Shown here one piece after another: positions 16,447-25,630 of a DNA stretch of 52,645 nucleotides. The translations under genes were made by a program, and so were the position numbers. The stretch is from Acidobacteriota bacterium. GTDB taxonomy: Bacteria; Acidobacteriota; Terriglobia; Bryobacterales; Bryobacteraceae. Location of the stretch: assembly GCA_017307505.1 (NCBI GenBank), contig JAFKEE010000063.1, forward strand, positions 1-52,645. Reading direction: 5' to 3'. Below the pieces are notes generated by a model. That model saw only the letters and a list, made by a program, of their open reading frames with translations, was not told the origin of the DNA and ran no database searches. The stretch's first letter is position 1. Each line of letters starts with the position of its first letter.

Positions 16447-19400
16447 TCAGGAAACTGGATTCCGGCGGGTCATCTCCTCGATCACACCGAACAGCTTTTC
16501 GGCTTCGTAAGGCTTGGTGAGGAAGCCGTCCATGCCCGCCGCGAGACAGGAACCCTCGTCGCCCTTCATGGCGTTGGCGGTCAGGGCCAGGATGGGCACA
16601 TGCCCGCCCAGCGCCGCCTCCAGGCTGCGAATCTGGCGTGTCGCTTCCAGCCCGTCCATGCCGGGCATCTGGACATCCATTAGAACCACGTCGAAGGGTT
16701 GGGCAGAGATTTTGTCCACAGCCTGCTTGCCGTCGGAGACAGCCACAACGTCATGGCCCCGCTTGCTCATCAGGCGTTCCACCAGCTTGCGGTTCACCGG
16801 ATTGTCCTCGGCCACAAGCACTCTCAGCCGGCCAGGAACGGAAGGCTCAGGCGGCGGCTCGGGTTCCGGCTCTGCCTGCTTCTCCAGCGGTGCCACCAAC
16901 TGCATCTTCACCCAGAAACGGAACAGGCTGCCTTTGTCCGGTTCGCTCTCCACTTCCAGCCGGCCGCCCATCCCGTCGACAATCTTCGCCGAGATCGCCA
17001 GGCCCAGGCCGGTGCCGCCATAGCGGCGCGTCACCGATCCATCCGCCTGCCGGAAGGCTTCGAAGATCAGCTTCTGCTGATCCAGCGGAATCCCGATGCC
17101 CGTGTCCTTCACCTCGAACCGGACTTCCGCATCGTTGTCGACGGTCCGGTCGAGCATCACGCTGAGCGAGACGGAACCTTTCTCGGTGAACTTCAACGCA
17201 TTGCCAAGCAGGTTCAGCAACACCTGCCGCAGTCTCGAACTGTCGCCGATGATACGGTTCGGCAATTGGTGGTCAAAGGTGCACGTGAGTTCCAGCTTCT
17301 TGGCGGCAGCCCGGCCTGTGAGCGTCCGCACCGCCTGCTGCACCGTGTCTCGCAGCATGAACTCTTCGTGGCCGATCTCCATGTAACCGGCTTCAATCTT
17401 GGACAGATCCAGGATGTCGTTCAGCAGGGCCAGCAGGCTGTCGGCGGAGATCTTGACGGTCTCCAGATAGTCCTTCTGCTCCGTCGTCAGCGCCGTGCCC
17501 AGCGCCAGTTCCGTCATGCCCAGGATGCCGTTCATGGGCGTCCTGATCTCGTGGCTGACATTGGCCAGGAACTCGTCCTTCAGGCGGTTGGCCCGTTCAC
17601 TCCGCTCCTTCTCCAGGCGAAGCTGCTTCGTGCGCTCGTCCACCGCGCGCTCCAGGCGCTCGGTCTCTTCCCGATGCTGGTGCTTGGCGCGCTCAATTCG
17701 CCACAGACCGGCGGCGATCAGCATCAGCACCACCAGCCCCTGCAGGTAGCGGTTGGCCCACCACGGCGGCATGATCGTAAAGGCAAAAACGGCCGGCTCC
17801 CGGCTCCATTCCTTGTAGCCGTCGAAGCCGTACACCTCCAACCGGTAGTCGCCCGGCGGCATTTCCGCAAACTGCATCTCGCGTTGCGAAGTATTCTGCC
17901 ACTCGGAGGACAAACCCACCACGCGGTAGCGGAAGCGCTGGCTGGAAGGACGGGAGAACGACAGCACCGCAAACCGGACCGTCAAGGTATTCCAGCGGTA
18001 GCCCACCTTGGCCTTCGTCTGCAGCGTTTGAGGATGCCCGCCCAGTTGCACCGACGTGAGCACCACGCGGGGCGGACCGGGGCTGGCCTTGACTTCGGAT
18101 TCGTGGAAGCGCGAAAGACCCGCGCTGGTTCCAATCCAAACCGTGCCGTCCGGCTCGGCGGCAAACGCATCGGAGTTGCAGTCGTCCCACACCAGGCCGT
18201 CGCCGCGCCTGTACTGGGACCACTGTTTCCCGTTGAAAACGCCCACCCCGCGGTCTGTGCCGACCCACATGTTGCCCTTGGTATCAAAGCGCGTGAAGTA
18301 GACCTGGTTCGAAGGCAGGCCGTCCGCGGGCGTCAGATGGGAGAGTTGCAGCCGGTCGCCCTGGCGCGTGACCCTGGTCAGGCCCATGCCTGTCTGGTAA
18401 GCAATCCACAGAGTTCCGTCCGGCCCGTCGCTGATCGACCAGACACCCTCGTATTTGAGGCCCTCCTGCAGGCCGTACCGCAGCCACCGTCCACCGGTCC
18501 GGCGGAACAGTCCATGCGTCGTGCCGTACCAGACCTCGCCGTCCGGCAGGACCTTCATGGTCAGGCCCGTTGCTTTCTCGGAACCCGGCACCTCGATGGC
18601 GTCGAAATGGCGCGTCTTCGCATTGAACAGGTACAGACCGGACTTGGTGGTGGTTGACGCCCAGAGTTGCCCCTGTTTGTCGATCTCCAGATGCGAAATG
18701 TAGTGATTCCGCGCCAGTTGCGGCATCGGGAAGCGGTCGATCCGGCCGGTCGAGGGGAAGAAGTGAATCGCCCCGTAGCCGCGCAGGCCCGCCCACATGC
18801 TGCCGTCCGAATCCATGGCCAGCGCCTGGATCTCCTCCCCCTGCAGCGCCCGAACGGCCTCAAAGTAGAAACTTTCCGCCTTCCTGCGCCCCCGGTAGAG
18901 GCCCCCACGCGTGGCGACCCACACTGTCCCGTGCCCGTCAGGCAGGATCTGCCAGACGAGTTCGTCATTGAGTCCTTCCGTGTAGGTGTAGCCTTCCCAC
19001 TCTCCGTAGCCGATCCAGCGGAAGAGCCCGCGGCCCAGCAGGCCAACCCACATCGCCCCGTCCTTGTCCCGGAAGATCATGGACACGTCGTTCGCCGCCA
19101 GCCCCTGCGCGCGGGTGACAAAGCGCCAGTGGGTCCCCTCCAGGATTGCGAAGCCCTCTTTGAGCGGCACCAGCAGCCGGCCTTTATTGTCCAGGGCCAG
19201 TTGCGGCACCCACGGGCTGCTGAGCGACCGGTCACAGGGCACCGGGACAAATGCCTCCGTCCCCGGCCTGCGTACCATCACCATCACCCGGTTGCGGATC
19301 CACAGATTGCCCTCGGCATCCTCCAGCATGTACTGCCAGGGATCCTTAGGCTGCTCTGTCCATGTGGCCGCGGGCACCTCATTCTCGCCTTCGAGGCGGC

Positions 19401-19962
19401 AGATGGAATTCAGGCAGCCGAACCAGACCTCGTTGCGCCGGTTCACCATCACACTCGCCACCGGACTCGTCACGCCCGTCGCGTAATGGAACTTCCAGAC
19501 GCCCGTCTTCTGCCGGACCCCGATGAGCAGGCCGGAAGGTGTTGCGACAAACACCCTGCCGGACCGGTCGGAGGCTACCCCCTGCGCGCCAACCACCTTC
19601 TTGGCCGGGGCAATGTCGACCTTATCGAACCGGTTCCCGTTCTGCACCCACAAGCCCACCGGCGTGCCCAGCCAGATCGTCCCGTCCGCACTTTGGTGCA
19701 TCGACTGAAGCGAGGTAGCCGGGACGCCCTCCCGGGCTCCGAATTCCGCGAAACTGTGTCCATCGAAGCGATACAGCCCGTTCTGGGTGCCTACCCAAAG
19801 AAAGCCGTCCTTGTCCTGGATCACTTGCTCGACGGCCAGGTTCAGCAGTCCGTCGGCATAGCCAAACTCTTGAAAAGCAAACTTTTGGGCACAGACGCGC
19901 GGTGCCAGGCAGATGACTGCCAGGCACGCTGCCAGCCTGAGGCTGCTCGCGCGAAGGTCCAT
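16447..19962 (-). CDS. Hybrid two-component system with periplasmic propellers (HTCS-like)
   Basis: 1171 residues from ATG 19962, preferred over an ATG 90 bases upstream because it opens with a signal peptide (LRLAACLAVICLAPRVCAQ). Residues about 25-690 consist of repeated two-component-regulator propeller blades (W-x-G-T-x-x-G-L pattern, e.g. DGFLWVGTQNGLYRF and DGTVWIGTSAGLSRF). A Y_Y_Y immunoglobulin-like domain follows (FRYRVVGLSSEWQ, LPPG-like PPGDYRLEV). One membrane helix (LQGLVVLMLIAAGLW) precedes a coiled coil, HisKA (NVSHEIRTPMNG), HATPase (NALKFTEKG, DTGIGIP, GTGLGLAIS) and a C-terminal receiver (VAEDNPVNRKL, LMDVQMPGMDG). No DNA-binding output is present, unlike the HTCS of Bacteroides. 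Such sensors often detect polysaccharide fragments. Confidence 0.94.
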   Translation of the reverse strand: MDLRASSLRLAACLAVICLAPRVCAQKFAFQEFGYADGLLNLAVEQVIQDKDGFLWVGTQNGLYRFDGHSFAEFGAREGVPATSLQSMHQSADGTIWLGTPVGLWVQNGNRFDKVDIAPAKKVVGAQGVASDRSGRVFVATPSGLLIGVRQKTGVWKFHYATGVTSPVASVMVNRRNEVWFGCLNSICRLEGENEVPAATWTEQPKDPWQYMLEDAEGNLWIRNRVMVMVRRPGTEAFVPVPCDRSLSSPWVPQLALDNKGRLLVPLKEGFAILEGTHWRFVTRAQGLAANDVSMIFRDKDGAMWVGLLGRGLFRWIGYGEWEGYTYTEGLNDELVWQILPDGHGTVWVATRGGLYRGRRKAESFYFEAVRALQGEEIQALAMDSDGSMWAGLRGYGAIHFFPSTGRIDRFPMPQLARNHYISHLEIDKQGQLWASTTTKSGLYLFNAKTRHFDAIEVPGSEKATGLTMKVLPDGEVWYGTTHGLFRRTGGRWLRYGLQEGLKYEGVWSISDGPDGTLWIAYQTGMGLTRVTRQGDRLQLSHLTPADGLPSNQVYFTRFDTKGNMWVGTDRGVGVFNGKQWSQYRRGDGLVWDDCNSDAFAAEPDGTVWIGTSAGLSRFHESEVKASPGPPRVVLTSVQLGGHPQTLQTKAKVGYRWNTLTVRFAVLSFSRPSSQRFRYRVVGLSSEWQNTSQREMQFAEMPPGDYRLEVYGFDGYKEWSREPAVFAFTIMPPWWANRYLQGLVVLMLIAAGLWRIERAKHQHREETERLERAVDERTKQLRLEKERSERANRLKDEFLANVSHEIRTPMNGILGMTELALGTALTTEQKDYLETVKISADSLLALLNDILDLSKIEAGYMEIGHEEFMLRDTVQQAVRTLTGRAAAKKLELTCTFDHQLPNRIIGDSSRLRQVLLNLLGNALKFTEKGSVSLSVMLDRTVDNDAEVRFEVKDTGIGIPLDQQKLIFEAFRQADGSVTRRYGGTGLGLAISAKIVDGMGGRLEVESEPDKGSLFRFWVKMQLVAPLEKQAEPEPEPPPEPSVPGRLRVLVAEDNPVNRKLVERLMSKRGHDVVAVSDGKQAVDKISAQPFDVVLMDVQMPGMDGLEATRQIRSLEAALGGHVPILALTANAMKGDEGSCLAAGMDGFLTKPYEAEKLFGVIEEMTRRNPVS

Positions 19963-20143
19963 GTCGGGTTTATCGACAGAAAGGCCCTGAAAGTTGAGCG
20001 CTGTGTAGGCTTGCTGACAAGTCTTTCTTAAGAAAGACCTTTCCGGCCCCATTCAGCGGCCGTCAGGGGCCCCGTCCGGAGGGGAATCTCCTGCTCTACA
20101 CTGGGAGAATACCTCGGGAAGGGGGCAGGCGCAGGGGCCGGCA

Positions 20144-20860
20144 ATGAATCGCGAATATCACAAGTGGCACAGCCAACGGTTGGGCCGGGAGATGGAACTC
20201 CTGCAGTTCGGGCATGGGGGCGTCCCCCTGCTGGTCTTCCCCAGTTCGATGGGCCGGTTCTTCGAGTACGAGGATCGCGGCATGGTGCAAGCCATGCAAT
20301 GGCAACTGGATACAGGCCAAACCATGCTCTTCTGCGTCGACAGCGTGGACAAGGAGAGCTGGTACAACAAAGGCATCCATCCGGCCGACCGCGTCCGCAG
20401 GCACGTGCAATATGAAGAGTACATTCTGAAAGAGGTGCTGCCGCTCATGCGGGGCAGCAGCGGGCACCACCGCGTCGCGGTCACCGGTTGCAGTTTTGGC
20501 GGCTACCACTGCACGAACTTCGCCCTCCGCCATCCGGAGTGCGTGCACACCTGCGTCTCCATGTCAGGCGCCTACGACATCAAACAGTTCCTGGGCGGGT
20601 ACTACGACAACGACTGCTACTTCAACAACCCGGTCGATTTCGTCCCCAACACGCAGGACGCCTGGTATCTCGACCAGTACCGCCGCGAGATCCGCTGGGT
20701 TTTCGGCGCCGGCGAGCATGACATCTGCCTGGAGGAGAACCGGCGCATCTCTGGGATCTTCAATGCCAAAGGCATCCCCCACTGGTTCGACTTCTGGGGC
20801 CTCGGCGCGGTCCACGATTGGCCCTTGTGGCAGCTCATGTCGAAGAAGTACTTTAGCTAG
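20144..20860 (+). CDS. Alpha/beta-hydrolase (esterase-like), first gene of amidoligase cluster
   Basis: 238 residues, no signal peptide, of the putative-esterase (EstA/Esterase_D-like) group. The nucleophile elbow is GCSFGG with Ser117; Asp193 (GEHDICLE) and His224 (GAVHDWPLW) complete a plausible triad in correct order. Start ATG 20144 has GGGG upstream (AGGGGCCGGCA). It precedes an ATP-grasp ligase by 33 bp and is on the same strand as five further genes. In such a setting a hydrolase could release or trim an ester- or amide-linked product, or be a thioesterase-like editing enzyme (inference). It is divergent from the hybrid kinase. Confidence 0.85.
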   Translation: MNREYHKWHSQRLGREMELLQFGHGGVPLLVFPSSMGRFFEYEDRGMVQAMQWQLDTGQTMLFCVDSVDKESWYNKGIHPADRVRRHVQYEEYILKEVLPLMRGSSGHHRVAVTGCSFGGYHCTNFALRHPECVHTCVSMSGAYDIKQFLGGYYDNDCYFNNPVDFVPNTQDAWYLDQYRREIRWVFGAGEHDICLEENRRISGIFNAKGIPHWFDFWGLGAVHDWPLWQLMSKKYFS

Positions 20861-20893
20861 AACGCGGAATCATCTTCAACGGAGGAAGTAGTG

Positions 20894-21835
20894 ATGAAGA
20901 AGATCGGGCTTTTGTACGGGATGGAGAACACCTTCCCGATGGCATTGGTGGACCGGATCAACTCGCGCCACGTCGACGGGGTAGTGGCCGAGAGCCTCAT
21001 GACCGGTGCGTTCCGCATGGACAAGCCCAGCGGCTACGAGGTCATCATCGATCGGATTTCCCACGATATCCCGTTCTACCGGGCCTATCTCCGCAACGCC
21101 ATCCTCCACGGCGCGAAGGTCATCAACAATCCGTTCTGGTGGAGCGCCGACGACAAGTTCTTCAACTACGCCCTGGGCGAGCAGATCGGCGTCGCCGTAC
21201 CCAAAACCGTCATGCTGCCGCATCACTCCCACCCGCCGGGCACCACCGGCCAGTCGATGCGCAACCTGATGTATCCGCTCAACTGGCAGGAAGTATTTGA
21301 TTACATTGGCTTTCCGGCATTCATGAAACCCCACCTGGGCGGCGGCTGGCGGAACGTCTACAAGGTGAACTCGCCCGACGAGCTCTATGCCGCCTACAAC
21401 GAAACAGGCGACCTCGGCATGGTGCTCCAGGAGAACATCGATTTCACGGAGTACTACCGCTGCTACGTCATCGGCCGCGAAAAAGTGCACGTCATGGCCT
21501 ACGACCCGCGCCTCCCGCACGAGCAGCGCTACGTCACGACCGCCGATCCCACCCAGTCCCCCCTCTACGGCCGCATCGTCGCCGACGCCCTGAAGCTCTG
21601 CCGCGCGCTCGGTTACGACATGAATACCGTCGAGTTCGCCGTTCGCGATGGCATCCCCTACGCGATCGACTACCTCAATCCCGCGCCCGACGCCGACCGC
21701 TTCTCCGTCGGGGAAGCAAACTTCGAGTGGATTCTCGAAGCCATGGCCGACCTCGCCATCGCGACCGCGCTGAGCCCTGCCCTGCCGCGGGACGACTACC
21801 ATTGGGGCCGGTTCCTGGCCGGCGGCCGGCGCTAA
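20894..21835 (+). CDS. ATP-grasp ligase (RimK-like)
   Basis: 313 residues from ATG 20894 (GGAGGA seven bases upstream; a GTG one codon earlier is possible). ATP-grasp enzymes join a carboxylate to an amine or thiol through an acyl phosphate. Visible elements: N-terminal pre-ATP domain; Lys145 in FMKPHLGGGWRNV (nucleotide loop); the hinge VLQENIDFTEYYRCYVIG; and C-terminal metal ligands Glu247 (NTVEFAV) and Asp259/Asn262 in AIDYLNPAPDAD, where the family more often has Glu before LNP. Substrates unknown. It lies between the esterase-like gene and a GCS2-type ligase, 19 bp from the latter. Confidence 0.9.
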   Translation: MKKIGLLYGMENTFPMALVDRINSRHVDGVVAESLMTGAFRMDKPSGYEVIIDRISHDIPFYRAYLRNAILHGAKVINNPFWWSADDKFFNYALGEQIGVAVPKTVMLPHHSHPPGTTGQSMRNLMYPLNWQEVFDYIGFPAFMKPHLGGGWRNVYKVNSPDELYAAYNETGDLGMVLQENIDFTEYYRCYVIGREKVHVMAYDPRLPHEQRYVTTADPTQSPLYGRIVADALKLCRALGYDMNTVEFAVRDGIPYAIDYLNPAPDADRFSVGEANFEWILEAMADLAIATALSPALPRDDYHWGRFLAGGRR

Positions 21836-21854
21836 CGTTCGGGAGGAGAGCCTC

Positions 21855-22964
21855 ATGACACGTCCAAGCTTCACCATCGGAATCGAAGAAGAGTACATGA
21901 CCGTCGATCCCGTGACACGGGAGCTGCGCAGTCACATCGACGCGGAAATGATCGAGCAGGGCAAGCTGGTCCTGCGCGAGCGGGTAAAGCCGGAGATGCA
22001 CCAGTGCGTGGTCGAGGTCGGCACCGAGATCTGCCACAACATCGCCGAGGCCCGGGCCGAGATCACCACCATCCGCCGTCATATGGTCGCCCTTGCCAAG
22101 GCCAACGGCCTCAGGCTGGCGGCGGCCGCCACCCATCCCTTCTCCCACTGGCGCAATCAGAGCATTTATCCGGACGAACGCTACCGGACGATTGTCGAGG
22201 ACATGCAGAACGTGGCGCGCGCCAACCTGATCTTCGGGCTCCATGTGCACGTCGGCATCGAGGATCGCGAAACCGCGATCCACATCATGAACGCCGCTCG
22301 CTACTTTCTGCCGCACATCCTGGCGCTCTCCACAAACTCACCGTTCTGGCTGGGGGATGAAACCGGATTGCGCAGCTACCGCTGCAAGGTCTTCGACAAG
22401 TTCCCCCGGACGAACATCCCGGACTATTTCCAGAGCTACGGCGAGTATGAGAGCCTGGTGAACCTTCTCATCCAGACCGGCTGCATCGACAATGCGAAAA
22501 AGATCTGGTGGGACCTCCGGCCCCATCCGACGTTCTCCACCATCGAGTTCCGCATCTGCGACCTGCCCATGCGGCTGGACGAAACCATCGCCCTGGCCGC
22601 GCTCATCCAGGCCACCGTGGTAATGCTTTGGAAACTCCATTCCAATAACCAGGGCTTCCGTCTCTATCGCCGTATGTTGTTGATGGAGAACAAGTGGCGC
22701 GCCGTCCGCTATGGAATCAACGGCAAGCTGATCGACTTCGGCAAGCGGGTGGAAGTTCCGTTCCGCGACCTTATGGAGGAGTACTTCAATATGGTGGCGC
22801 CGGTCGCCGAAGAGTTGGGCAGCCTGAACGAAATCAATTACCTGCGCCGGATCCTGGAAGAGGGCACGGGCGCCGACCGCCAGTTGAAGGTTTTCCACGA
22901 AACCCGCGACCTGAAGGCTGTCGTGGACTACATCATTCAGGAAACAGAGGCAGGACTGAATTGA
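21855..22964 (+). CDS. Carboxylate-amine ligase, YbdK/GCS2 family (COG2170)
   Basis: 369 residues with the glutamate-cysteine-ligase type 2 fold. The opening FTIGIEEEYMTVDP carries the metal-binding Glu residues; further landmarks are HQCVVEVGTEIC, the HVHVGIED segment and WWDLRPHPTFSTIEFRICD. YbdK of E. coli has weak gamma-glutamylcysteine ligase activity, but other members make different amides, so the acceptor here is open. ATG 21855 has GGGAGGAG ten bases upstream. The stop overlaps the start of the aminopeptidase gene (TTGA), evidence for one transcript. Confidence 0.93.
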   Translation: MTRPSFTIGIEEEYMTVDPVTRELRSHIDAEMIEQGKLVLRERVKPEMHQCVVEVGTEICHNIAEARAEITTIRRHMVALAKANGLRLAAAATHPFSHWRNQSIYPDERYRTIVEDMQNVARANLIFGLHVHVGIEDRETAIHIMNAARYFLPHILALSTNSPFWLGDETGLRSYRCKVFDKFPRTNIPDYFQSYGEYESLVNLLIQTGCIDNAKKIWWDLRPHPTFSTIEFRICDLPMRLDETIALAALIQATVVMLWKLHSNNQGFRLYRRMLLMENKWRAVRYGINGKLIDFGKRVEVPFRDLMEEYFNMVAPVAEELGSLNEINYLRRILEEGTGADRQLKVFHETRDLKAVVDYIIQETEAGLN

Positions 22965-23962
22965 TCCCCTTCGACCCTGAGTTGACCCAAGGAGCGCGCA
23001 ATGCAGTCAGGGTCTGCCTGCGCGTCCAGTCGCACGAGAAAGTCACGGTCATCACCGACAACGTCTCCCGCGAAATCGCGGCGGCGCTGGAGGCGGCCCT
23101 CACAGAAATCGGGGCCGCCTACCGCACCTTCGTGCTGGAGGAATGCGCCCCCCGCCCGCTGGAGGGCATGCCTCAAGCTGTGCTGGACGAGATGGAGTCC
23201 AGCCAGGTGAGCATCTTTGCCGTGGTGGCGCAGCGCAATGAGCTTCGCAGCCGCATGCAGATGACTGACGTAGTGAATCGCCGCAAGATCCGCCATGCCC
23301 ACATGGTGAACATCGAGAAGCGGATCATGCTCGAAGGCATGCGGGCTGACTACCTGGCCGTGGACGATCTCAGCCTCCGCCTGCTCGAGATCACCCGTCC
23401 GGCGAAACAGATCCGCGCCCGCAATGCCGCCGGCACGGATATCGTGGCCGCGATGAATCCCGACTATAAGTGGCTGAAAACAAGCGGGATTATCAGTGAG
23501 AACACGTGGGGCAACCTGCCCGGCGGCGAAGTCTGGACCACGCCCGGTGAAGTGAACGGCCGCTTCGTCGTGGACGGCGTGGTGGGCGACTATCTCTGCG
23601 CGAAGTACGGCGACCTGGCTGCAACTCCGCTCACACTGCTCATCGAGGGCAATCGGCTCAGGGAAGCTCACTGCACCAACAAGGAACTGGAAGCCGAATT
23701 CTGGAACTACACCCATACCGATGAAAACTCAGACCGTGTGGGCGAGTTCGCCATCGGCACCAACCTTGGCGTCCGTGACGTCATCGGCAATATCCTGCAG
23801 GACGAAAAGATCCCCGGGGTCCACATCGCTTTCGGCAATCCCTATGGCGACCACACCGGCGCGCAGTGGTACTCTTCCACCCACATCGACGTCGTGGGCC
23901 GCAAGTTCACCATCCATGCCGACGACCGCCTCATCATGCGCGACGGGGAGTTTGCGCTGTGA
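22961..23962 (+). CDS. M29-family metalloaminopeptidase (AmpS-like)
   Basis: 333 residues from TTG 22961 overlapping the ligase stop; GCAGGA lies just upstream, and the frame upstream of this is only the ligase gene in another frame. M29 enzymes are co-catalytic metallo-aminopeptidases. The metal ligands appear intact: Glu190 (GGEVWTTP), Glu262 (GEFAIGTN), His288 (VHIAFGNPYGD), and His308/Asp310 (STHIDVV). The N-terminal half (about 1-180) is the lid domain. In an operon with two kinds of amide-forming ligase it may trim the product or an inactive precursor, or hydrolyse the amide in reverse (inference). Its stop overlaps the next start (GTGA). Confidence 0.92.
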   Translation: MIPFDPELTQGARNAVRVCLRVQSHEKVTVITDNVSREIAAALEAALTEIGAAYRTFVLEECAPRPLEGMPQAVLDEMESSQVSIFAVVAQRNELRSRMQMTDVVNRRKIRHAHMVNIEKRIMLEGMRADYLAVDDLSLRLLEITRPAKQIRARNAAGTDIVAAMNPDYKWLKTSGIISENTWGNLPGGEVWTTPGEVNGRFVVDGVVGDYLCAKYGDLAATPLTLLIEGNRLREAHCTNKELEAEFWNYTHTDENSDRVGEFAIGTNLGVRDVIGNILQDEKIPGVHIAFGNPYGDHTGAQWYSSTHIDVVGRKFTIHADDRLIMRDGEFAL

Positions 23963-25146
23963 AAGGAGATGAACTCCGGCGGCTCTTCAATGCCCACTTC
24001 ACGCCGGAGCGGTATGCTCGCTTCCAGTCACTGATCGACGAACGCAGCGGCACCCATGTCGCATTCCGCCTCTGCGAGACGCCCTGCTTCTTCGACTCCG
24101 ACTTCATGCACCGCATCTCGCGGGAAGGCAAGGAACTCATCGGCCAGTTGGTGGACGATCCCGCCTACCGCAGGACCTCCGACGCCTCCCTGCCGGAGCA
24201 GTACAACGTCCCGAACGAACCCGCCGAGCCGATGTTCGTCCAGGTGGACTTCGGCGTCATCCGCGGAGCGGACGGCCTGCTGCACCCAAAACTGGTCGAG
24301 ATTCAGGGCTTCCCTTCCCTCTACGCCTTCCAGCCCGTCCTGGCCCAGAGCTACATCGACGCCTACGAGATGCCGGCAGACCTGCACTACCTGCTGGATG
24401 GCCTGGATAATTCTCAGTACTGGAAGCTGCTGAAAGAGTCGATCGTAGGCGGCCACGATCCCGAAAACGTAGTCCTCCTGGAGGTCGATCCGGACCACCA
24501 GAAGACCCGCTGCGATTTCCTGCTGACGGAGCGTATGCTCGGAGTCCGGGCCGTCTGCCTTGCTCAGGTCCGCAAACAGGGCAGGAAGCTCTACTATCAG
24601 CGCGATGGGCGGGAGGTGGAGATCCGCCGCATCTACAACCGCGCGATCGTCGACGAAATCGAGCGCCGCCAGGTCCCCATGCCCTTCGATTGGCGCGACG
24701 ACCTCGACGTCGAATGGGCCGGCCACCCGAACTTCTACTTCCGCATCTCGAAGTTCTCTATTCCGTATCTGCACCACCCCTCGGTGCCGGAAACCATCTT
24801 CCTCGACCGTCTGGAAACCCTGCCGGAAGACCTGTCGAAATGGGTCCTGAAGCCGCTCTACTCTTTCGCCGGCCTGGGCGTCGTCATCGGACCCACCCGG
24901 GCCGATATCGACGCCATCCCGCCCGCCGAACGCCCCAACTTCATCCTCCAGGAGAAGGTGGACTTCACACCTGTCGTCGAAACCCCCTTCGGTCTGACGA
25001 AAGCCGAGATCCGGGTCATGTACGTCAACCGCCGACCGGTCACCCACATCATCCGCATGGGCCGCGGCAAGATGATGGGCGTGGACCACAACAAGAATAT
25101 GGAGTGGGTCGGAGCCAGCGCGGCGCTGTACCATGAAGAGTCATGA
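23959..25146 (+). CDS. ATP-grasp-like protein with apparently circularly permuted motif order
   Basis: 395 residues from GTG 23959, overlapping the aminopeptidase stop. The order of ATP-grasp elements looks reversed compared with classical enzymes: a putative metal-binding segment FVQVDFGV...KLVEIQGFPS (residues 93-120) comes first, while the nucleotide-binding Lys loop WVLKPLYSFAGLGVV (295-309) and the hinge FILQEKVDF (328-336) lie C-terminal, ending with IRVMYV and a conserved tail KMMGVDHNKNMEWVG. This order is known from the circularly permuted ATP-grasp families linked to peptide synthesis. The stop overlaps the start of the small gene that follows (ATGA). Catalysis is inferred; the family call is by motif only. 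Confidence 0.8.
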   Translation: MKGDELRRLFNAHFTPERYARFQSLIDERSGTHVAFRLCETPCFFDSDFMHRISREGKELIGQLVDDPAYRRTSDASLPEQYNVPNEPAEPMFVQVDFGVIRGADGLLHPKLVEIQGFPSLYAFQPVLAQSYIDAYEMPADLHYLLDGLDNSQYWKLLKESIVGGHDPENVVLLEVDPDHQKTRCDFLLTERMLGVRAVCLAQVRKQGRKLYYQRDGREVEIRRIYNRAIVDEIERRQVPMPFDWRDDLDVEWAGHPNFYFRISKFSIPYLHHPSVPETIFLDRLETLPEDLSKWVLKPLYSFAGLGVVIGPTRADIDAIPPAERPNFILQEKVDFTPVVETPFGLTKAEIRVMYVNRRPVTHIIRMGRGKMMGVDHNKNMEWVGASAALYHEES

Positions 25147-25490
25147 CGCCGGATGAGGAAGACCTGCTCGACCACGTATTCGACTACCTCTGCGAGGAAC
25201 AGCCGGAGACGGTAGCCGATATTGCCGACGATGAGATCCGCCGCCGGGCGGCCCTCGGCATCCGCCGGGCCCAGGGCCACGGCATCGAACAGCCCGAGGC
25301 GATCACCGCCTACGTGTCGTTGATGTTCCTGGTCGCGCCCGATTTCGACGTGCATCCGAAGATCGGCAAGGTTCTGGCGGACACCAGCGTCCCCGCGGCC
25401 CTGCGAATGAAGCAGATCTTCTCCCGAACCTCGGAGGCCGACTGGGAAGAGGCGGCCGAAAAGTCCGCCGGTTGGGACGCGCTGGCCTAG
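25143..25490 (+). CDS. Small helical conserved protein, last gene of amidoligase cluster
   Basis: 115 residues from ATG 25143 overlapping the ATP-grasp stop. It is acidic at the N-terminus (PDEEDLLDHVFDYL) and predicted mostly helical, with the stretch GIRRAQGHGIEQPEAITAYVSLMFLVAPDFDVHP. A pattern of this type (R-A-x-x-x-G-I followed by LMF and PDFD) occurs in small proteins near secretion-related genes, but I cannot name a family securely. Translational coupling implies a role in the same pathway, for example as carrier, regulator or peptide substrate. It lacks a Gly-Gly leader site or core-like C-terminus, so a RiPP precursor is unlikely. Confidence 0.75.
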   Translation: MTPDEEDLLDHVFDYLCEEQPETVADIADDEIRRRAALGIRRAQGHGIEQPEAITAYVSLMFLVAPDFDVHPKIGKVLADTSVPAALRMKQIFSRTSEADWEEAAEKSAGWDALA

Positions 25491-25553: not shown

Positions 25554-25630
25554 GCGCCCGTAGCTCAGTTGGATAGAGCGTCTGGCTTCGAACCAGCAGG
25601 TCGGGAGTTCGAGTCTCTCCGGGCGCGCCA
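25554..25630 (+). tRNA. tRNA-Arg (anticodon TCG)
   Basis: 77-nt cloverleaf. The acceptor arms GCGCCCG and CGGGCGC pair fully, the D arm is GCTC/GAGC, the anticodon loop CTTCGAA gives TCG (reads CGA), the T arm is GGGAG/CTCTC with TTCGAGT loop, and the CCA end is encoded. The first anticodon-stem pair (T27-C43) is mismatched. Confidence 0.95.

Follow-up and report, generated by a model that had tools for sequence, protein, structure and literature searches.

Gene neighborhoods that bring amidoligases together with peptidases, and for which peptide-like products were predicted, were reportedly described by Iyer, Abhiman, Burroughs, and Aravind in 2009. The GCS2, RimK-type, and permuted ATP-grasp families each ligate through an acyl phosphate. 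The fungal enzyme Cp1B is a proven amide ligase independent of nonribosomal peptide synthetases (NRPSs) (PMC12568646). Here, we analyzed a cluster of six co-directional genes (g1 to g6) spanning positions 20144-25490 of the window, by which we mean the whole stretch of 52,645 nucleotides from contig JAFKEE010000063.1 of an Acidobacteriota bacterium. All six lie on the plus strand and encode, in order, an esterase-type alpha/beta hydrolase, a RimK-like ATP-grasp ligase, a GCS2 ligase, an M29-type metallopeptidase, a circularly permuted ATP-grasp predicted to be of the glutathione synthetase (GSS) type, and a small acidic protein. The finding that three acyl-phosphate ligases stay in the company of two hydrolases favors a stepwise building of amide bonds accompanied by editing or trimming, and we put at roughly 60% the probability that g1 to g5 form a soluble, NRPS-independent pathway that makes a short isopeptide or amide and edits it by hydrolysis.

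Gene order and co-occurrence in Acidobacteriota

Loci containing g5 were collected by one short-peptide-pattern scan of genome contigs, and patterns of this kind find close relatives only. The scan gave 37 loci, all with Acidobacteriota titles, from Bryobacterales to Acidobacteriaceae and Candidatus Sulfotelmatobacter. In 27 of them the sequence reaches 5 kb or more upstream of g5, and 25 of these 27 have the order g1-g2-g3-g4-g5; of the two exceptions, one (L038) is without g1 before the locus edge and the other (L048) has g5 alone. A first-pass annotation, made from the sequence without database searches, had proposed checking whether the gene order recurs in relatives, and it does. As in the amidoligase/peptidase neighborhoods, the order is conserved and two or more amide ligases with conserved active sites lie beside a peptidase. 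Gene neighborhoods were clustered with a codon-usage gene caller; clustering of all open reading frames (ORFs) was discarded, being swamped by spurious antisense ORFs.

Co-occurrence was quantified in 396 Acidobacteriota genomes, where g5 was found in 53. Before counting, we dropped 41 of 155 genomes with g2 (keeping matches of about 7e-72 or better), 2 of 53 with g5 (E values of 8e-5 and 2.4e-4), 87 of 121 with g4 (keeping 6e-77 or better), and 12 of 76 with F8, a protein of ~450 amino acids considered below (keeping 1e-102 or better); the g2 rows removed were a longer family, ~30% identical, and weaker matches. The strong matches that remained numbered 114 for g2, 51 for g5, 34 for g4, and 64 for F8. 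The gene g2 was present in 48 of the 51 genomes with g5 (Fisher p 2e-26) and in 33 of the 34 with g4 (Fisher p 9e-19), relatedness being uncorrected in both tests, and g4 was accompanied by g5 in 30 of 34. Within the 48 genomes carrying both g2 and g5, the two genes lay within 12 kb of each other in 26, farther apart on one contig in 11, and on separate contigs in 11. In genomes of one family (f11), g5 is often elsewhere, yet it is retained. The link between g2 and g5 holds even where the genes lie apart.

A second permuted ATP-grasp, F8, occupies a comparable position. Its representative matches PF04174 (CP_ATPgrasp_1) with 28 bits against a gathering threshold of 23.1, and the order g2-F8-g3 was found in seven loci, one of them (L140) with a small extra gene, all fetched around g2 in genomes picked mostly for lacking g5. 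F8 occurs with g2 in 61 of 64 genomes, at most 4 kb from it in 25, and together with g5 in only 6, including the window's own, while 11 of the 114 genomes with g2 have neither g5 nor F8. A tree of g2 (79 of 86 rows from the fetched loci, selected by length) contains a 100/100 clade of 56 members, 51 of g5 type, 4 with neither partner, and 1 with F8. Partner labels, assigned by genome with the window labeled g5, change 8 times on this tree against a shuffle mean of 25.6, a contrast that near-copies inflate. F8 and g5 largely substitute for each other in the context of g2 and g3. The F8-type gene of the window's own genome (L180:9273-10718, on G000:C6) is a more distant stand-alone paralogue.

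The hydrolase slot varies as well. F10, an amidotransferase-like protein (L109:10107-11180, L115:10158-11168, and kin), lies directly between g3 and g5, where the M29 enzyme would be, in five loci; three others have neither M29 nor F10 there. None of the 10 genomes with F10, which was sought in the fetched loci only, is among the 34 with g4. The one F10 protein scanned had no Pfam match, and its match to GMP synthase is weak (E 0.07); it carries the motifs GGPGH, Cys155-His156, and His260-Pro-Glu262, which we take to be a class-I amidotransferase triad. The 19.5 kb surrounding the stand-alone F8-type gene yielded neither F10 nor any of g1 to g5. The core is g2 and g3 with one of two permuted ATP-grasps, g5 or F8; the hydrolase slot holds an M29 enzyme in some loci and an amidotransferase-like protein in others.

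Other genes were seen near these loci. An aldo/keto reductase (PF00248 in L097, the one scanned) follows g4 in L097, L104, and L158, and in the first two it stands between g4 and g5; it is a possible tailoring enzyme of family f11. An ORF of ~800 amino acids, Ser/Thr-kinase-like by eye, begins downstream of g5, 1.3-6 kb from the start of the g5 ORF, in 25 of the 37 loci (L034-L068) and probably reflects synteny outside the pathway. In a plasmid collection, no relative of g5 was found, and g2 had four Streptomyces matches only, annotated as RimK family, of which the one inspected adjoins a LysW gene.

Enzymes of the cluster and their surroundings

The ligase g3 (21855..22964) matches PF04107 (GCS2, 6.6e-66) and PRK13515 (NCBIfam, 1.3e-165; 550.7 bits against a cut-off of 371, which none of 14 control genomes exceeded), and a phmmer comparison with YbdK (1r8g) gave 6.7e-51. 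PMC2588565 gives GhExE as the signature of GCS2 and PafA, and g3 shows it as GIEEE within a full-length match, as expected of a GCS2/YbdK-like carboxylate-amine ligase. Gly9 and Glu11-13 are present in 65 of 69 aligned rows (the other 4 are gapped), Arg233 and Asp236 in all 69, Glu54 and Gly128 in 67, His130 in 66, and Gln50 in 60. The gene is single copy in its own genome (one match). In the rows used for residue conservation, here and below, some genomes appear twice (as with L054 and L119).

The RimK/D-Ala-ligase-type assignment of g2 (20891..21835 with a GTG start, or from 20894 with ATG) comes from weak matches only, to TIGR00768 (RimK, 2.3e-7, far below its cut-off) and to D-Ala ligase; its profile matched the D-Ala-D-Ala ligase 3r23 at 1.1e-4. 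Residue conservation over 86 rows is high, with Lys146 and Gly150-152 in 84, Gln180, Asp260, and Asn263 in 85, and Arg190 in all; Glu181 is variable (41 of 86). A longer family (open frame of ~425 amino acids), 26-30% identical to g2, was seen in other Acidobacteriota (G452:C35:74300 and ~20 similar).

The third ligase, g5 (23959..25146, with a GTG start overlapping the g4 stop), had no Pfam or NCBIfam match and, as a single-protein query, none in the PDB. A profile of 29 relatives gave sub-threshold matches only, in which human GSS (E 0.25) and YgiC (E 0.66) stood among unrelated proteins. The AlphaFold2 model, built with 33 aligned homologues, has a predicted local distance difference test score (pLDDT) of 88.8 and a predicted template modeling score (pTM) of 0.89, with residues 370-372 and 374-382 under 50. 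Foldseek with this model matched human GSS at E 2.6e-13 and returned 42 matches at E<=0.001, namely synthetases of glutathione, homoglutathione, glutathionylspermidine, and trypanothione, nematode proteins resembling GSS, YgiC/YjfC, Cp1B from fungi, and a single protein labeled putative gamma-glutamylcysteine synthetase. Additionally, hhalign aligned g5 with F8 over 348 columns (probability 91, E 1.2e-6), in a single comparison of shallow alignments. Against PF04174 itself g5 had no match, and 1 of the 29 members of its alignment reached E 0.031. Judging by the model, the Foldseek results, and the profile match to F8, g5 is predicted to be a GSS-type, circularly permuted ATP-grasp.

Twelve residues of g5 are kept in 72-75 of 75 rows (Lys298, Pro299, Ser302, Ala304, Gly305, Gly307, Gln331, Asp97, Glu114, Gln116, Glu350, and Arg352), with Asp97 and Glu114 in 73 and the remaining 2 gapped. 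The acyl-phosphate site of Cp1B consists of R139, D141, E163, and N165, as given in PMC12568646. Gln95 (58 of 75 rows) and Gln116 (73 of 75) of g5 stand at the Arg and Asn places of that site, when matched by motif spacing rather than superposition. The claim of three amide-forming ligase types made in the first-pass annotation is borne out by family and fold assignments, and key catalytic residues, whose presence in the ligases it had made a test, are conserved in the alignments.

The M29 assignment of g4 (22961..23962, with a TTG start overlapping the g3 stop), a short form of 333 amino acids, also stood up, with a PF02073 match of 8.9e-16 and profile matches to AmpS (1zjc, 1.2e-5) and NicX (7cn3, 7.4e-4). 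Glu190, Glu262, His288, His308, and Asp310, which we take to be the five M29-type metal ligands, are present in 52 of 52 rows; the AmpS alignment covers the first three only, and His308 and Asp310 fall in the part aligned with NicX. The hydrolase g1 (20144..20860) matches PF00756 (1.8e-8), and among solved esterases its profile fits 5vol best (2.7e-9). The nucleophile Ser117 of its GCSFGG motif, His224, and Asp225 are present in all 55 aligned rows, Asp193 in 51, and Asp216 in 43; each of these three Asp residues is a candidate for the triad acid.

The last gene, g6 (25143..25490), encodes an acidic protein of 115 amino acids (pI 4.4) with no Pfam, NCBIfam, PHROGs, or PADLOC match. It was seen only in near kin, namely its own genome, six genomes of the same genus (G002, G003, G005-G008), two of the same family (G013 and G020) that represent two other genera, and the loci L032 and L033. 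Because of this restriction, the six-gene form named in the first-pass annotation is a local version of the cluster. In G003, a match to g5 limited to query residues 367-393 and a g6 relative 1.2 kb on were observed (L122:8572-10499), and g1 to g4 were not found in this 18-kb stretch. Since only this fragment and the g6 relative remain, G003, a close relative, has seemingly lost the cluster while retaining g6. Sulfotelmatobacter-type loci also carry two other small inserts, F17 in 7 loci and F39 in 4, which look like ordinary small proteins, presumably DUF1801-like and SnoaL-like.

Gene calls agree with the compact arrangement noted earlier. The g1-g2 gap is 30 or 33 bp, depending on the g2 start, and the g2-g3 gap is 19 bp; g3/g4, g4/g5, and g5/g6 each overlap by 4 bp (TTGA, GTGA, and ATGA). 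The codon-usage gene caller called no additional genes inside 20144-25490. Family scans and gene calls revealed no NRPS, carrier protein, transporter, or precursor peptide among the cluster genes, as had been claimed, and a precursor peptide in the window was rejected, there being no room left between called genes. The proteins also appear soluble, as had been proposed, with no strongly hydrophobic stretch in any of the six (top 19-residue Kyte-Doolittle mean, 1.52). A defense reading was rejected, with no PADLOC match for the six proteins, as was a phage reading, with no PHROGs match for the three tried (g4, g5, and g6). Upstream, a minus-strand gene (16447-20052) looks by eye like a hybrid sensor kinase; downstream of g6 are a tRNA-Arg(tcg) (25554-25630) and an opposite-strand gene. 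No promoters or terminators were predicted on either strand, fewer than in shuffles, which says little for a GC-rich genome.

Proposed pathway and alternative explanations

We infer that the three ligases act on one molecule, and propose the following order and substrates. In a first step, g3 would phosphorylate the carboxylate of a side chain, with the gamma-carboxylate of glutamate as the likeliest choice, before coupling an amine or amino acid to it. Then g5, or F8 in other families, would activate a carboxylate of the g3 product and add the next amine or amino acid, and the RimK-like g2 would put another residue on one end. The hydrolases g4 (or, in some loci, the amidotransferase-like protein) and g1 may trim, proofread, or recycle intermediates. 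A broader and more tentative proposal, which we hold with rather less assurance, is that of a widespread modular line in Acidobacteriota for a soluble isopeptide or amide, in which the exchanges of g5 with F8 and of M29 with the amidotransferase-like protein would mean that families may differ in the end-caps placed on a common scaffold.

It is important to consider the observations that weigh against this pathway. Its distribution is patchy: g5 occurs in 30 of 101 genomes of relatives, its own included, and among eight same-genus genomes two gave no match (G001, 78% complete, and G004, 97% complete) and G003 only the fragment described above. Furthermore, 66 of the 114 genomes with g2 are without g5 and 81 are without g4, and in 22 of the 48 genomes with both g2 and g5 the latter is not within 12 kb, so that g5 could act in a step or pathway of its own. 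The lack of a Pfam match for g5 counts in the same direction, as do Gln95 and Gln116: because by motif spacing they stand at the Arg and Asn places of Cp1B, the donor or acceptor of g5 may differ from that of Cp1B. For g4, M29-like proteins include the dioxygenase NicX, whose iron site is His-His-Asp, and the weak profile match between the two is gapped around the first His. The AlphaFold2 model of g4 is poor (pLDDT 65), with residues 170-195 and 252-314, where the putative metal ligands lie, under 50, and owing to this low pLDDT it was left out of the fold searches.

Among the rival explanations, the tagging of proteins or peptides survives best, although we consider it unlikely. Here, the RimK-like enzyme and the permuted ATP-grasp would attach a chain made by the GCS2 enzyme to a protein, and M29 would remove it. 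RimK-type enzymes do modify proteins, and pairs of permuted ATP-grasp and GS-like proteins were reportedly predicted as tagging systems by Iyer et al. in 2009. The Pup ligase PafA is related to GCS2 (PMC2588565); however, g3 belongs to the free YbdK/GCS2 type, and no small target or tag gene is conserved, since g6 occurs in near kin only and F17 and F39 in 7 and 4 loci.

A catabolic gamma-glutamylation, in which glutamate placed on an amine by g3 would be taken off by the hydrolases after conversion, appears improbable. The resemblance of F10 to class-I amidotransferases (Cys155 and His260-Pro-Glu262, read as above) would suit it, this presumably being the fold of PuuD in putrescine use, but the cluster has neither a conserved oxidoreductase nor a conserved aminotransferase, the aldo/keto reductase (F21) being adjacent in a few loci only, and two further ligases would be left without a role.

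A GCS2 enzyme and a GSS-type permuted ATP-grasp are the pair that makes glutathione in plants, and the modeled fold of g5 might thus suggest a dedicated pathway for a thiol, a glutathione analogue. Such a pathway is very improbable, and the earlier idea of a product like a thiol is weakened, because BshC, the last bacillithiol enzyme and the one sought (not BshA or BshB), scores above its curated cut-off in the window's own genome and bacillithiol is predicted for Acidobacteria in PMC6282198, so that a second major thiol is not needed. In addition, Gln stands by motif spacing at the Arg and Asn places in g5, and the third ligase and the M29 enzyme would go unexplained.

The preferred reading, a pathway for a short isopeptide or amide, has practical consequences. 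To our knowledge, Acidobacteriota are abundant in soil and few of their metabolites are known. A ligase pathway present in many families without the hallmarks of NRPSs or ribosomally synthesized and post-translationally modified peptides would probably be missed by hallmark-based genome mining. The exchange of permuted ATP-grasps offers a natural experiment for learning which enzyme determines a building block, and a search for the product needs the expression of five proteins only.

Comparison with known systems

No papers on this cluster were found in the open-licence PMC literature. Several described systems share some of its parts. The COG2307/COG2308 system joins a permuted ATP-grasp to a permuted GS-like protein and an N-terminal nucleophile (NTN) hydrolase, with alpha-E genes alongside. 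It resembles the cluster in its permuted ATP-grasp, F8 matching PF04174, and differs from it in that g5 is without such a match; no NTN-hydrolase or alpha-E gene appears among the family matches of the six window genes. The plant-type glutathione pathway shares both enzyme folds, a GCS2-type ligase and GSS, whereas the cluster adds a RimK-like ligase, an M29 enzyme, and an esterase, shows Gln95 and Gln116 by motif spacing, and stands in a genome with BshC.

E. coli YgiC/YjfC and glutathionylspermidine synthetase are among the closest solved folds to g5 besides GSS, but g5 has no sequence-level family match, its profile hit to YgiC being sub-threshold. In a title that PMC12568646 cites, YgiC and YjfC are called peptide-spermidine ligases. 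The E-64 pathway of fungi, an NRPS-independent route to a small molecule, likewise uses a GSS-fold ATP-grasp, Cp1B, but this enzyme works with an adenylating amide synthetase and an oxygenase rather than with a GCS2 enzyme, a RimK-like enzyme, or an M29 peptidase. YgiC/YjfC and Cp1B show that the GSS fold also serves to make peptide-polyamine amides and pseudopeptides.

The closest likeness is to the amidoligase/peptidase neighborhoods, which are said to combine several ATP-grasp and GS-like amide ligases with peptidases and, as a kind, have reportedly been known since 2009. The two alternative permuted ATP-grasps and the two alternative proteins of the hydrolase slot are described here. What this locus and its relatives add is the spread of the system within one phylum, the predicted GSS-type fold of g5, and the way in which ligase modules and hydrolase modules replace one another.

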